NCBI GenBank assembly: GCA_022841525.1 | Contig: JALHRI010000014.1 | Span: 1 to 40,538 of the forward strand | Direction: 5' to 3' | DNA: 40,538 nt | From: Alphaproteobacteria bacterium | GTDB lineage: Bacteria > Pseudomonadota > Alphaproteobacteria > Rickettsiales > UBA3002 | In this document: in pieces, positions 32,248-37,999 of the stretch | How positions within the stretch are numbered: the stretch's first letter is position 1 | How the letters are laid out: each line of letters opens with the position of its first letter | Made by a program: the position numbers and the translations under genes | Notes under the pieces: model-generated | Seen by the model: only the letters and a program-made list of their open reading frames with translations | Databases searched by the model: none | What the model was told of the DNA's origin: nothing

Positions 32248-32304
32248 TCTGATGTGCGTGAGTTACTTGCACCGCTGCTAAAAATCGGCTAGCACTGTGT
32301 GCCT

Positions 32305-33333
32305 ATGAAAGCACTTGTAAAATCGCATGCCCGCGAAGGCATCTGGCTGACGGATGTTCCTGAACCCACCACCACCAGCAACGATGTGCTGATTCAGGTG
32401 CTGAAAACCGGCATTTGCGGCACCGATATTCACATCTATAACTGGGATGAATGGGCGCAGAAAACCGTGCCGGTGGGCTTAACTGCGGGCCATGAATTTG
32501 TCGGCCGTATCATCGAAATCGGCAGCAATGTGCACAACGCCAAAGTGGGCGATATTGTCTCTGTCGAAGGTCACGTGGTCTGCGGCGTGTGCCGCAACTG
32601 CATGGCAGGGCGCAGGCATTTATGCCCCAACACCAAAGGCATTGGTGTGAACATTAACGGTGCGTTTGCCGAGCGCGTGGCGGTGCCGGCGGCGAATCTG
32701 TGGCATGTCAGCCCCCATGTGCCGCTGGAATATTACGCGATTTTTGATCCGCTGGGTAACGCCGCGCACACCACGCTGGCCTTCGATTTGGTCGGTGAAG
32801 ACGTACTGATCACCGGCGCGGGCCCGATTGGTATTGCCGCCGTGGCGATGGCCAAAAAAGCCGGGGCCCGCCACGTGGTGATTACCGATGTCAACGACTA
32901 CCGCCTTGGCCTGGCACGCACGCTGGGTGCCACGCGCGCGGTGAATGTGGCGAAAGAAAATCTGAATGACGTGATGCGTGAGTTGGGCATGAGCGAGGGC
33001 TTCGATGTAGGCTTGGAAATGTCTGGCAATCCTTCTGCACTGCGCCAGATGCTGGATGCGATGGTACACGGCGGCAAGGTGGCGATGCTGGGCATTCAAC
33101 CCGAAAACACCGGCATTAACTGGGATCATATCGTGTTCAAAGGCTTGCATGTGCAAGGCATTTATGGCCGCCAGATGTTTGAAACCTGGTACAAGCTGCA
33201 ATCGATGATCGAGTCGGGTATGGACATCGCGCCGGTGATTACCCACCGCATGCACTACACTCAGTTCCAAGAAGGCTTCGACCTGATGCGCGCCGGAAAA
33301 TCCGGTAAGGTGATTTTGGATTGGGCGGCGTAA
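32305..33333 (+). CDS. tdh: L-threonine 3-dehydrogenase
   Basis: [33 protein letters not shown]...[21 protein letters not shown]...[11 protein letters not shown]...[19 protein letters not shown]. Confidence 0.96.
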
Positions 33334-33406: not shown

Positions 33407-33592
33407 ATGCGCACTACGGTCACACTGGAAGACAATTTACTGAAAAAAGCCCAAGCCTATACAGGCATTGCCGAGAAATCATCGCTGCTGCGCGAAGCGC
33501 TTCAGGCACTCATTGCGCGAGAAAGCGCCAAGCGGCTCATTGCACTTGGGGGCACGGAAAAAAACGCTAAGCTTCCTCGCAGACGTCGCTAA
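33407..33592 (+). CDS. VapB-like antitoxin (ribbon-helix-helix)
   Basis: MRTTVTLEDNLLKKAQAYTGIAEKSSLLREALQALIARESAKRLIALGG, typical VapB, directly before a VapC. Confidence 0.88.
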   Translation: MRTTVTLEDNLLKKAQAYTGIAEKSSLLREALQALIARESAKRLIALGGTEKNAKLPRRRR

Positions 33593-33595
33593 CTC

Positions 33596-33961
33596 ATGGT
33601 GCTGGTTGATAGCTCGGTCTGGATTGATCACTTCCGCCGCAGCAACGTTCATCTGATCGCGCTATTGGAAGATGGCGGTATTCTTACCCATCCATCGATT
33701 CTCGGCGAACTGGCGCTGGGTAATTTCAAACATCGAACACGTATTCTACAGGCTCTGTACGATCTGCCGATCATCACCTGCGCGCAAGATCACGAAGTGC
33801 TACATTTCATCGAAACACAGCAATTATATGGCACAGGCATTGGCTATATTGATGCGCATTTGCTTGCCGCTGCGCGTCTGCATGGCACTACCTTGCTAAC
33901 GCATGACAAAAAGCTACATGCTGCTGCGCTCAAGCTTAACCTTGCCTTTCGCGAGTATTGA
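33596..33961 (+). CDS. VapC-like PIN-domain toxin
   Basis: MVLVDSSVWIDHFR...LTHPSILGELALG...YGTGIGYIDAHLLAAARLHGTTLLTHDKKL. Confidence 0.92.
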   Translation: MVLVDSSVWIDHFRRSNVHLIALLEDGGILTHPSILGELALGNFKHRTRILQALYDLPIITCAQDHEVLHFIETQQLYGTGIGYIDAHLLAAARLHGTTLLTHDKKLHAAALKLNLAFREY

Positions 33962-34009
33962 TGCAGAGATTCTTCGTCTTCGCCGCTGCAATGCCCCAAA
34001 AACGCATTT

Positions 34010-34186
34010 GAACTCTTCTCGTATTCCCGTATTCTCGCACTCTCGAATTCCACTTCCACGGAGCATCCCATGACCGCAGCCCTTGCCACGAAGCCCGCCA
34101 CTTCCCTTGCGGCGCAATTTGAAGCTGAAATTGCGGCGCTGAAACACGCCGGTACCTTCAGAACTAGTCAATACCCACGCTCTTAA
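34010..34186 (+). pseudogene. truncated kbl 5' end, copy 1 (leader plus about 32 codons, then divergent sequence and stop)
   Basis: Leader gaactcttctcgtattcccgtattctcg and ATG at 34070: MTAALATKPATSLAAQFEAEIAALKHAGTFRT-SQYPRS*; 26 of the first 32 residues match intact kbl. Confidence 0.9.
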
Positions 34187-35084
34187 GTGGAGTTATCCTG
34201 CCTTGGTATTCATAATGCTCGCAGCTGGAGGTATGATGTGTGCCAACGATAGCTGCCTTATCTGTGTACCCTTCGGGAACCGGATATCCACCAGCCTTAC
34301 GTGCCGATGCCATATCAGCATACGTATGATCACATGCAGGAAGATGGTGCTCTTGTAGAAACTCGTCTAATCTTTGTCTGGTTTCCAAATCTTCTGGGTG
34401 TTTCGACAGATATTTCTTGGTTTTATCCCGCGCTGCTTTCAGCAATTCATCGGGAGCAATTTTCATGAGTTCAGTCCATACTGATTTATAGAATTGCAGA
34501 TTTCTATCCACCAGCGCTTCAATGATCGCTTTTTTTTGTGCTTTGCTTGCGCCTAAAAAATGCCTGAAAGCAAGTTCAGCATTTGGTTGAGTGATAACGC
34601 CTGATTCATAGAGGTTGTTTCGTAAGCTTAATAAGCGAGCACAAAACGCAACATTTCCATTTTTATCTGGAAGGCTATTAACTTTTATAATATCATCAAT
34701 CAAGTACTTGGGTAAAGAATCAAGATCGTAACAGTCTTGATAAAATATCAGTTTTTCTTTTCTACGGTCGTTCCACCCCGTTAATCCAGGAAAACGGCCT
34801 GTTTCAGAAAAGAGAAACATTTCTACTGGAGATATCAGGTGATCAACGTTGAAAGCAGTTGTTCCATCGCTACTAGTTTCAGGAAAATTGGGTTGAAAGA
34901 AATGAAACTCAAATTTTGATAACCCATCCAGCGATGGGAAAATATCACTATCAGCCATCCAGTCTAAAACCTCTGTAATAGTACTGTGCCTGCCAAATGA
35001 TTCTAGTGCATTTGCCGCGTCTGCTGGTAAAGTGACGGATGCTAAAACACTAGCACCGCTTCTTAAAAAATGTCGTCTTTTCAT
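34164..35084 (-). CDS. orphan protein with twin-arginine-like N-terminus
   Basis: 306 aa; MKRRHFLRSGASVLASVTLPADAANA resembles a Tat or Sec signal. AT-richer than surroundings. No family recognised. Confidence 0.75.
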   Translation of the reverse strand: MKRRHFLRSGASVLASVTLPADAANALESFGRHSTITEVLDWMADSDIFPSLDGLSKFEFHFFQPNFPETSSDGTTAFNVDHLISPVEMFLFSETGRFPGLTGWNDRRKEKLIFYQDCYDLDSLPKYLIDDIIKVNSLPDKNGNVAFCARLLSLRNNLYESGVITQPNAELAFRHFLGASKAQKKAIIEALVDRNLQFYKSVWTELMKIAPDELLKAARDKTKKYLSKHPEDLETRQRLDEFLQEHHLPACDHTYADMASARKAGGYPVPEGYTDKAAIVGTHHTSSCEHYEYQGRITPLKSVGID

Positions 35085-35197
35085 ACTAATGAATATGCAG
35101 GACTTAACCTATTTCTTGTATGAAGATTTGATGACAAAATACCGATTACCGGGTAATCAAATCATCGACAGACCATCGTATTATCCCTATTCTTTCT

Positions 35198-35268
35198 TGT
35201 CATGCCTGCGAAAGCAGGCATCTTATGCATTGAAATTTTAGAGATTCCTGCTTACGCAGGAATGACAA
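35198..35268. repeat. inverted-repeat element (TTGTCATkCCTGCG arms)
   Basis: ttgtcatgcCTGCgaaaGCAGgcat...gattcCTGCttacGCAGgaatgacaa: two hairpins with outer arms complementary. Confidence 0.88.
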
Positions 35269-35306
35269 AAGTAAACGAAATATATGATCCTTTACGGAGT
35301 CCCCCT

Positions 35307-35399
35307 ATGACCGCTGCACTTGCCACCACGCCCTCCACTTCCCTTGCGGCGCAATTTGAAGCTGATGACGGTATGACATCACCATCGCTTTTACATTGA
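35307..35399 (+). pseudogene. truncated kbl 5' end, copy 2 (about 19 codons)
   Basis: MTAALATTPSTSLAAQFEA-DDGMTSPSLLH*; shares the 31-nt string CCACTTCCCTTGCGGCGCAATTTGAAGCTGA with copy 1. Confidence 0.9.
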
Positions 35400-35440
35400 A
35401 CTCTTCTCGTATTCTCGTATTCTACCCTAAGGAGCTCCCC

Positions 35441-36652
35441 ATGACCGCTGCCCTTGCCACCACGCCTGCCACACCATTTGCAGCACAGCTGGAAGCTGAA
35501 ATTGCGGCGCTGAAACAAGCCGGAACCTTCAAAACTCTGCGCTATATTCAAACGCCGATGGACGCCGAAGTGGATATGGAAGGCAGCGGCCACGCGCTGG
35601 TACTATCGGCGAATAATTATCTGGGGCTGGCGAACCATCCGGAGGTGATTGAAGCAGGCCGCGAGGCCTTGACGAAATACGGCGCGGGCACCGCCAGCGT
35701 GCGTTTTATTTGCGGCACCTTCACGCCGCATCGCGCGCTGGAAGAGGCGCTGGCCAAGCTGCATTTCACGCAGAGCGCACTGAGTTACGTCAGCTGCTGG
35801 AGTGCCAATACCGGCCTGATGCCTAGCATTGCAGGTAGCGAAGACGCGCTCATTTCCGATGCGCTCAACCATGCCTCCCTCATCGATGGTTGCCGCATGA
35901 GCAAAGCCAAACGCGCGGTGTATAAGCATGCCGACATGACCGATTTGGAAGCCAAGCTGAAAGAAGCACAGGGCGCGCGCCGCATTTTTATTATCACTGA
36001 CGGCGTGTTTAGTATGGAAGGTTCCATCGCGCCGCTGCCGGATATTATCACGCTCGCCAAAAAATACGGCGCGGCGATTATTATGGATGATTGCCACGGC
36101 GTCGGTGTGTTGGGTAAACACGGCCGCGGTACGGCGGAATATTTCGGCGTGGAAGGGCAGGTCGATATCATCACCGGCACGCTGGGCAAGGCACTCGGCG
36201 GAGCGGCAGGCGGCTATATTGCAGGGCCTAAAGCGCTGATCGATTACCTCAATCAGGTATCGCGGCCGCAGCTATTTTCCAACGCGTTGCCGGCGACGAT
36301 TGCCGCAAGCGCGCTGAAGGCCGTTGAAATCATGAACCGCGAGCCTGAGCGCGTGGCAAGGCTGCATGCAGGTGTGAAGCGCATGCGCGAGGGTCTGAAA
36401 AAGCTGGGCTTCAAGCCGCTGGAGGGCGATAGCGCGATTGTGCCGATTATTGTTGGCGAAACGTCCTTCGCGATTGCGATGAGCAAGGAGCTCCTCAACG
36501 AAGGCGTCTTCATCACCGGTTTTGGCTTCCCCGTAGTGCCCGAAGGCACCGCACGCCTGCGCATTCAAATGAACGCAGCGCTTACCGATGCGCAGATCGA
36601 CCGCGCGCTGGTGGCCTTTGAAAAAGTGGGCAAAAAACTGGGCGTGATTTAG
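35441..36652 (+). CDS. kbl: glycine C-acetyltransferase (2-amino-3-ketobutyrate CoA ligase)
   Basis: MTAALATTPATPFAAQLEAEIAALKQAGTFKTLRYIQTPMDAEVDMEG...LVLSANNYLGLANHPEVI...IIMDDCHGVGVLGKHGRGT...DIITGTLGKALGGAAGGYIAG. Start taken at ATG 35441 with upstream ggag. Confidence 0.96.
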   Translation: MTAALATTPATPFAAQLEAEIAALKQAGTFKTLRYIQTPMDAEVDMEGSGHALVLSANNYLGLANHPEVIEAGREALTKYGAGTASVRFICGTFTPHRALEEALAKLHFTQSALSYVSCWSANTGLMPSIAGSEDALISDALNHASLIDGCRMSKAKRAVYKHADMTDLEAKLKEAQGARRIFIITDGVFSMEGSIAPLPDIITLAKKYGAAIIMDDCHGVGVLGKHGRGTAEYFGVEGQVDIITGTLGKALGGAAGGYIAGPKALIDYLNQVSRPQLFSNALPATIAASALKAVEIMNREPERVARLHAGVKRMREGLKKLGFKPLEGDSAIVPIIVGETSFAIAMSKELLNEGVFITGFGFPVVPEGTARLRIQMNAALTDAQIDRALVAFEKVGKKLGVI

Positions 36653-36667
36653 GACATCGCAACAAAG

Positions 36668-37999
36668 CTAGACGCCGCGCGAGGCTTGTTGCGCCGCGAT
36701 GAAATCTCGCAAGCGGCCAAGATCATGAATCATAGATTCTATGACTGGCAGTGCATGTTCGCCGGGTAATTTCCCCAGTGAAGCCAGCACTGCTTCAAAT
36801 TCATGATCGATATTCATACGCGTTTGTTGCGCGCGGTAGCGCTCGAAATGGCAAAAAACATCCCTAAATGCGGCAGCTTTTTCTTCTGATTGACTGCAAT
36901 TATGAAGAAACTGAACCCAAGGGCCTGATGCCGGGGCGAGTGATTTCGCAGGCGACTGACTCAGCTCATCCCCCAGTGATGATGCGCGTGCATCACGGTA
37001 ACGGTTATAAGCGCGAGGCAAGCCTTTTTCGCCGACTTTTTTCATCAAACTTTTATAGGCCAGGAAGCTGTTGCCTGAAGAATCACATTCTTTTGGTTGA
37101 ACGATAAAGTGGCCATGAGTTTTTGCCATGAGCATTAAGCCATGTAAAAAAGCATAGGTGGTGACAAAATTTACGTTCCCCATACCATCGGACGTACTTG
37201 CTAAAAAATGCTTGCTGTTAGGGTTGAATCTGTCGTCTAGCTCTCCGGCATATTGTGCGTAGTGGGGGTCATGTTGATTGGCAGTGCGATAATGGTGCCG
37301 CTGAATAACGCGTCCGCGCACGTCGCCTCCTTCGTAGAGTACAAAAATGGGCGAAGTGTCTCCTCTGGTGTGTAAGGTATGAATCGCATCGCTCAACGAG
37401 ATCTCACCACGATCTTTGAAGCCGTTTTTTAAGGCGGTAGATTCTATGGAGCCATCGGCATGTAGACTGCTGCTGGCCAGGTTGTGGGCATGAACAGCGC
37501 GCGCAAGTTGCGTATTAGGCTTTAGCAAACTTGCGATTAATTGCCCCTTTGAAGGTGGCCATGTTCCGCGCTCTCTGGATTGCCAGCGTACTGCGATATG
37601 GTCGTTACTTGGATGCTGTAAAATCGTATGGAGTCTATCCAAATACTCCTCACCGCAGCGCGTGGGAATAATCTCGATCAATCCCATTCCAAGTAAATCG
37701 CGCATAAATCCAACACGTTGATCTGCAAAGCGGTAGCCATAACGTATATTTGCGGCGCTCACCCGCGGAGGATCTCCGCAGAGGTCCTCGCGTTGAATCG
37801 GCGTTTGTAATCCAAAAAACTCGCCCAACACCATATCCGTCGTGCTTAATCTGATGACGCCACGTTTGGCCATTCCCATCAGTAACCGCGCGTAGCCATA
37901 ATGCTTCTGATGCTCCTCACCAGCGAGCATCAGCGTCAGCAGGCTAGAGGTATCTAGCACTACCGTAGGGGGGCTGGCGTCTGTCGTCGCACGTTGCAT
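36668..37999 (-). CDS. large orphan protein with PIN-like N-terminal motif
   Basis: 443 aa; N-terminus TVVLDTSSLLTLMLAGEE...IRLSTTDMVLGEFFG resembles PIN acidic motifs; remainder unrecognised. Confidence 0.65.
   Translation of the reverse strand: MQRATTDASPPTVVLDTSSLLTLMLAGEEHQKHYGYARLLMGMAKRGVIRLSTTDMVLGEFFGLQTPIQREDLCGDPPRVSAANIRYGYRFADQRVGFMRDLLGMGLIEIIPTRCGEEYLDRLHTILQHPSNDHIAVRWQSRERGTWPPSKGQLIASLLKPNTQLARAVHAHNLASSSLHADGSIESTALKNGFKDRGEISLSDAIHTLHTRGDTSPIFVLYEGGDVRGRVIQRHHYRTANQHDPHYAQYAGELDDRFNPNSKHFLASTSDGMGNVNFVTTYAFLHGLMLMAKTHGHFIVQPKECDSSGNSFLAYKSLMKKVGEKGLPRAYNRYRDARASSLGDELSQSPAKSLAPASGPWVQFLHNCSQSEEKAAAFRDVFCHFERYRAQQTRMNIDHEFEAVLASLGKLPGEHALPVIESMIHDLGRLRDFIAAQQASRGV

Follow-up and report, generated by a model that had tools for sequence, protein, structure and literature searches.

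Tycheposons contain a tyrosine recombinase within a tRNA-flanked element. Protein genes are also described as targets: at icd, prophage e14 and phage 21 supply a diverged gene end of 163-165 bp, the old end persisting as a fragment beyond the element, and similar replacement takes place at 5' ends with Rac at ttcA and SpyCI at mutL (PMC6379469, PMC4129442). In homology-facilitated illegitimate recombination, homology joins one side of the incoming DNA and illegitimate joining the other (PMC3240628). This reaction was proposed to build, through sequential displacement, the stacked arrays in the T6SS effector loci of Vibrio cholerae (PMC5361080). For Helicobacter pylori, a long direct repeat on both sides of one cargo module is described as a target duplication (Nobusato et al. 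2000, in the account given in PMC1643837).

How orphan genes enter bacterial genomes when no mobile element can be identified is still an open question. The genome analysed here is a draft metagenome-assembled genome (MAG) of 2.34 Mb (274 contigs, 5.26% estimated contamination) whose junctions are known from the assembly alone. It retains apparent footprints of at least eight entries of orphan genes or other cargo. The displaced gene ends would record the side, the order and the donor divergence of each entry. Because other genomes can readily be searched for this footprint, the share of orphan and toxin-antitoxin gene gain that proceeds via gene-end replacement can be measured.

As in homology-facilitated illegitimate recombination and T6SS displacement, one side of the insert here is homologous to the resident locus; the other side may have been joined illegitimately, and an older version would be pushed aside, with successive rounds building arrays. 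The part pushed aside in the T6SS loci is an immunity gene, whereas here it is the short end of a housekeeping gene, and the cargo comprises unrelated single orphan genes at many loci of one genome. The diverged replacement end and the far-side fragment are shared with the icd elements, and the 5' cases with Rac and SpyCI. However, the elements at icd, ttcA and mutL have their own integrase, many genes and one target each, whereas the islets described here have about one gene, no integrase and at least eight targets. The likeness to Helicobacter pylori, as far as it is set out in PMC1643837, lies in one cargo module, often a selfish two-gene system, between long direct repeats; the copies here appear instead to have diverged as functional alleles. 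Parts of tRNA genes flank the short inserts at tRNA-Pro and tRNA-Met, as in tycheposons and tRNA-targeting islets. Unlike tycheposons, most targets here are protein genes and the islets are without a tyrosine recombinase.

The tdh-kbl locus

The window (the whole stretch of DNA analysed, 40,538 nt) contains tdh (32299..33333, + strand), encoding a zinc-dependent dehydrogenase of the threonine 3-dehydrogenase type (Pfam ADH_zinc_N and ADH_N), and an intact kbl (35441..36652, +), encoding a glycine C-acetyltransferase of 403 aa (NCBIfam NF005394, 1e-153). The closest named relative by kbl was a Rickettsiales MAG. A 443-aa protein encoded just 3' of kbl (36668-37999, -) had no Pfam, NCBIfam or PADLOC match. 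tdh is the usual upstream neighbour of kbl. Where relatives in the order have retained both genes, the gap between them was mostly 0-60 bp, which represents an empty site at long range only.

In the window, tdh is followed by a probable vapB-type antitoxin ORF of 61 aa (33407..33592, +), which had no family match in the profile search and is named by its position ahead of a PIN-domain gene. The latter encodes a vapC-type toxin (33596..33961, +; Pfam PIN, 5e-11). Next comes the 62-nt leader (34008..34069, +) of a displaced kbl 5' end, c1. This leader contains a TTCTCGTA-like octamer repeat in common with the leader of intact kbl, and the octamer-like repeat is present elsewhere in the genome. 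c1 comprises 32 codons (34070..34165, +) and runs into the stop codon of an orphan cargo gene on the opposite strand (34164..35084, -). The product of this gene, P0002 (306 aa), has a Tat-like signal, and its islet has 40% GC relative to 53.8% for the genome. Between P0002 and a second displaced end lies a dispersed palindromic repeat with imperfect terminal inverted repeats (approximately 35197..35270), belonging to a family with more than 10 copies genome-wide. The second displaced end, c2 (35294..35365, +; start at 35307), consists of approximately 12 nt of leader, 19 codons and 2 nt. It is separated from the leader of intact kbl (35396..35440, +) by a 30-nt spacer (35366..35395) in which cargo is absent.

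The preliminary description had placed three kbl starts, two of them truncated, at 34070, 35307 and 35441, with the orphan gene and a repeat element between the first and second. Alignment bore out these positions and this order. c1 was approximately 81% identical to kbl over 134 nt, including the leader from 34008, with indels. Local alignment to the kbl start scored 139 for c1 and 65 for c2; the maximum among the other 368 segments of the window was 28. Differences between c1 and kbl fell at first, second and third codon positions in a ratio of 3:2:11.

A 31-nt string (CCACTTCCCTTGCGGCGCAATTTGAAGCTGA) was indeed common to c1 and c2 and altered in the third copy, as had been reported. The overall likeness of c1 and c2 claimed from it was regional only. 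Over the 57-nt overlap, the last nine variable sites all grouped c1 with c2 but only one of the first six did, and the copy tree is thus a mosaic rather than a plain split of c1 and c2 from kbl. All three copies encode an N-terminal extension (MTAALATxPxT) that the kbl proteins of relatives do not have; any donor must therefore be an unsampled near relative. A tree of c1, c2 and kbl with relatives was uninformative, the kbl starts of the relatives being too diverged and without the extension.

Longer tdh-kbl gaps, holding other sequence or genes, were present in three genomes (G006, G021 and G343). No kbl or tdh remnants were detected in these three gaps. The gap therefore tolerates insertions, and the end-swap footprint was not seen there. 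The inserted gene in the G006 gap (L008) is a different one, with a C-terminus (SIKAAQENEQHLPGGYTLPGN) faintly like the KAGGYPVPxGYT motif of P0002.

Displaced gene ends elsewhere in the genome

Approximately 1.60 Mb of the same 2.34-Mb genome was scanned, in stretches, for local direct repeats touching gene ends. Seven further loci were found (lepA, pccB, the aspartokinase gene, ahcY, typA, tRNA-Pro and tRNA-Met), giving at least eight with kbl. At each of the seven, a short direct-repeat copy of the gene end lay 0.2-2.1 kb distant, and at six the gap was filled by a lone orphan gene, with a vapBC-type pair in addition at pccB.

At lepA, a 461-aa orphan separates the gene from its displaced 5' end, 1.6 kb upstream. 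For pccB (acyl-CoA carboxylase) there are two displaced 3' ends, and the copies are separated first by a 126-aa orphan and then by a PIN/RHH toxin-antitoxin pair. Displaced 3' ends were also found for the aspartokinase gene (90-aa orphan; this case partly overlaps a dispersed intergenic repeat), ahcY (97.5% identity, 240-aa orphan) and typA (672-aa ankyrin/PcfJ-like protein). At tRNA-Pro the 5' 59 nt are repeated identically beyond a 150-aa orphan. At tRNA-Met the 3' 44 nt are displaced across 216 bp in which no gene was called. The tRNA breaks lie in the anticodon and T loops, and these two cases could be ordinary tRNA-targeting remnants. The tRNA-Pro break is in the T loop, so that the displaced part is 5' and not the usual 3' part of the tRNA. 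The displaced tRNA-Pro fragment and a 35% GC islet lie between two intact tRNA-Pro genes (G000 contig C3, L168 3200-4270).

At least two rounds of displacement had been proposed at kbl. Two rounds are likely at pccB as well, where there are two displaced ends with the vapBC-type pair and the orphan stacked. The three copies of the pccB 3' end (G000 contig C16, L187 16163-19156) make this a second locus with two apparent rounds.

All ten displaced ends, counting the two of kbl, were in direct orientation, with 5' ends lying upstream and 3' ends downstream. When the opposite strand of the same ~1.60 Mb was scanned, the sole matches were dispersed repeats and a weak one of 43 nt. Gene-end copies were on the inner side of the cargo at 8/8 loci, one side of the insert being homologous to the resident locus, and the direct repeats flanking the cargo were about 40-158 nt long. 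The eight coding displaced ends all broke less than 100 nt inside the gene. Breakpoints differ between loci, yet all lie at most 100 nt from the gene end. No common crossover core across the breakpoints was visible by eye; with one or two events available per target, each target may still have a core of its own. Islet GC was 35-48% in six of the eight stretches measured (genome, 53.8%).

Control sequence totalled 1.3 Mb and comprised 0.4 Mb of a genome of the same family (G008), 0.4 Mb of a genome of the same order (G029) and 0.53 Mb of kbl surroundings from diverse genomes. These three controls yielded no unique displaced end with the right polarity. At an equal per-base rate, the chance of eight loci against none is approximately 0.008 (0.546 to the eighth power). 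Displaced lepA ends were absent from 7 related genomes and displaced pccB ends from 10, over the flanking sequence that could be inspected (usually 1.4 kb).

The genome being a MAG of 274 contigs with some estimated contamination, mixed strains in the metagenome might be thought to have produced the copies as an assembly artefact. We consider this very improbable. The junctions join unrelated unique sequence and would require spanning reads, the polarity and the synonymous bias described below hold across many loci on different contigs, and two control genomes, which are also multi-contig, were without the pattern.

Divergence of the ends and proposed mode of entry

Codons that differ between displaced and intact ends were classified for six displaced coding ends. 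Changes were synonymous in 26/40 of these codons, relative to 22% expected under decay, and none of 20,000 runs of a decay simulation gave a value as high (P below 5e-5). Taken singly, five loci were at or below about P = 0.01, and ahcY was borderline (0.06). A pooled count by codon position, with 30/51 differences at third positions, was superseded by this stricter simulation. Codon 6 of the displaced lepA end encodes lysine (K6), as in several relatives, and that of the intact gene arginine. The displaced pccB end reads LENPRKKHDNLP, near several relatives, where the intact gene has LKNPKKKHDNLP; it retains E501, which is frequent among relatives and missing from the intact copy. A TAG in the lepA stub indicates some later decay.

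Because the differences are mostly synonymous, the displaced ends look like alleles and not like decayed local copies. Both versions of each end therefore diverged while functional (translated). As read from the sequences, this favours import of a related allele, with either version possibly the foreign one, over local duplication. The earlier suggestion of imported alleles in place of simple local duplication is accordingly supported, by the synonymous bias in changed codons. No donor genome was found.

The same count bears on an insertion with long target duplication, in which the host gene end is doubled as the cargo inserts and the outer copy then decays. The layout would be that of Helicobacter pylori, where such insertion is described for restriction-modification genes and long direct repeats enclose one cargo gene (Nobusato et al. 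2000, in the account of PMC1643837); vapBC pairs, too, are modules of the selfish kind. However, copies that are born identical and then decay should differ mostly by amino-acid changes, contrary to the observed 26/40, and we regard this reading as improbable.

Divergence of the coding type is likewise expected if the displaced ends are what is left of old full-length tandem duplicates, eroded to their last 35-100 nt while orphans were inserted. Against this, each of eight genes must have been worn down to a stub of its terminus, always on the correct side, and no core-gene remnant of intermediate length was seen in the scans. Tandem duplication of core genes such as lepA and ahcY is also rare. 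An origin by such erosion is hence highly unlikely.

The reading that we prefer, with a probability of roughly 55%, is that DNA of a near relative enters beside a housekeeping gene, replaces the end of the gene and strands the old end. Recombination within the last 35-100 nt of the gene would admit the DNA. The incoming piece would combine its own allele of the end of the gene with a short stretch of cargo, either a single orphan gene or a vapBC pair. As the incoming DNA would bring this end with it, the gene would stay functional. The old end, now separated from its gene by the cargo, would subsequently decay. At kbl, at least two events would have taken place on the upstream side. The first would have stranded c1 when the orphan, the repeat element and c2 arrived; a later event would have stranded c2 and introduced the present leader and start. 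What we infer here is which event came first, where the DNA came from and how it was joined.

The reaction was, we think, ordinary short-homology recombination. This could take the form of homology-facilitated illegitimate recombination or of a single crossover; if the latter involved a circle bearing a short arm, the resulting anatomy would be the same. Selection would keep only those events that restore a complete gene; as gene-breaking events would be lost, a bias towards gene ends would result without any targeting. A gene for the competence protein ComEC is present. Some points count against this reading. Junctions placed freely should produce longer remnants as well, unless the cargo is looped back out by long repeats, and a random break would not ensure that cargo genes look complete, as they do. 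Nor did a donor genome emerge, and the assembly is a draft MAG.

The main rival is attachment of the phage type, as at icd. Site-specific, satellite-like cassettes would carry a gene end as their arm, and a recombinase, lost or acting in trans, would insert them such that the arm replaces the resident end. This would account for the uniformly short arms (about 40-160 nt), the preserved gene function, the polarity and the occurrence of two tRNA genes among the targets, broken in the anticodon and T loops. The anatomy at icd, with its 163-165 bp arm, is the same (PMC6379469, PMC4129442). The genome also encodes four tyrosine recombinases. All four lie outside the islets, however, and no integrase was found inside any islet, each holding one orphan or a vapBC-type pair. 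No common core was visible by eye and no common cargo family was found, the cargo amounted to a single gene, and many specificities would be required to serve eight or more different targets. The cargo was without a confident phage family match, and the proteins tested had no viral, phage-record or plasmid relative. On this balance, site-specific cassettes are possible but doubtful.

The preliminary description had proposed a cassette that enters at the kbl start and carries a replacement 5' end. In outline this model stands, the same architecture being present at the seven other loci. A dedicated cassette or recombinase, though possible, is unsupported, since the breakpoints are without a visible motif, the cargo genes are unrelated and the islets are without an integrase. 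A more speculative and less probable reading is that minimal mobile islets, each an orphan or toxin-antitoxin pair with a diverged gene-end arm, circulate in this uncultured lineage and stack repeatedly at the ends of housekeeping genes without an integrase of their own.

Cargo genes and dispersed repeats

P0002 has a C-terminal motif (YADMAAARKAGGYPVPxGYT) in common with one paralog in the same genome and one protein in a genome of the same family. A search of 344 genomes of the order added only a single weak match, again within the family. Members of the P0002 family are located at 34164-35084 of the window, L038 1486-2403 and L037 874-1749. In these Tat-signal proteins the C-terminal motif is nearly invariant and the middle variable.

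A viral or plasmid origin of P0002 was considered and rejected, as no relative was present in viral contigs or plasmids. Similarly, viral contigs yielded no relative of the lepA orphan, and neither viral contigs nor phage records contained one of the ahcY orphan. The orphans gave no confident match to PHROGs; weak matches only, to unnamed families, came from the pccB PIN toxin (best 1e-6). A PADLOC search of the cargo returned no match. A common cargo family was also rejected: the lepA orphan was without a relative in the family, and family searches linked no cargo genes together.

Several families of dispersed palindromic intergenic repeats of approximately 75-115 bp, with 10-40 copies each, were observed in the genome (L131 10800-19900, L178, L179 and others). 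Inside four islets, palindromic repeats adjoin the gene-end copy, perhaps more often than expected by intergenic chance.
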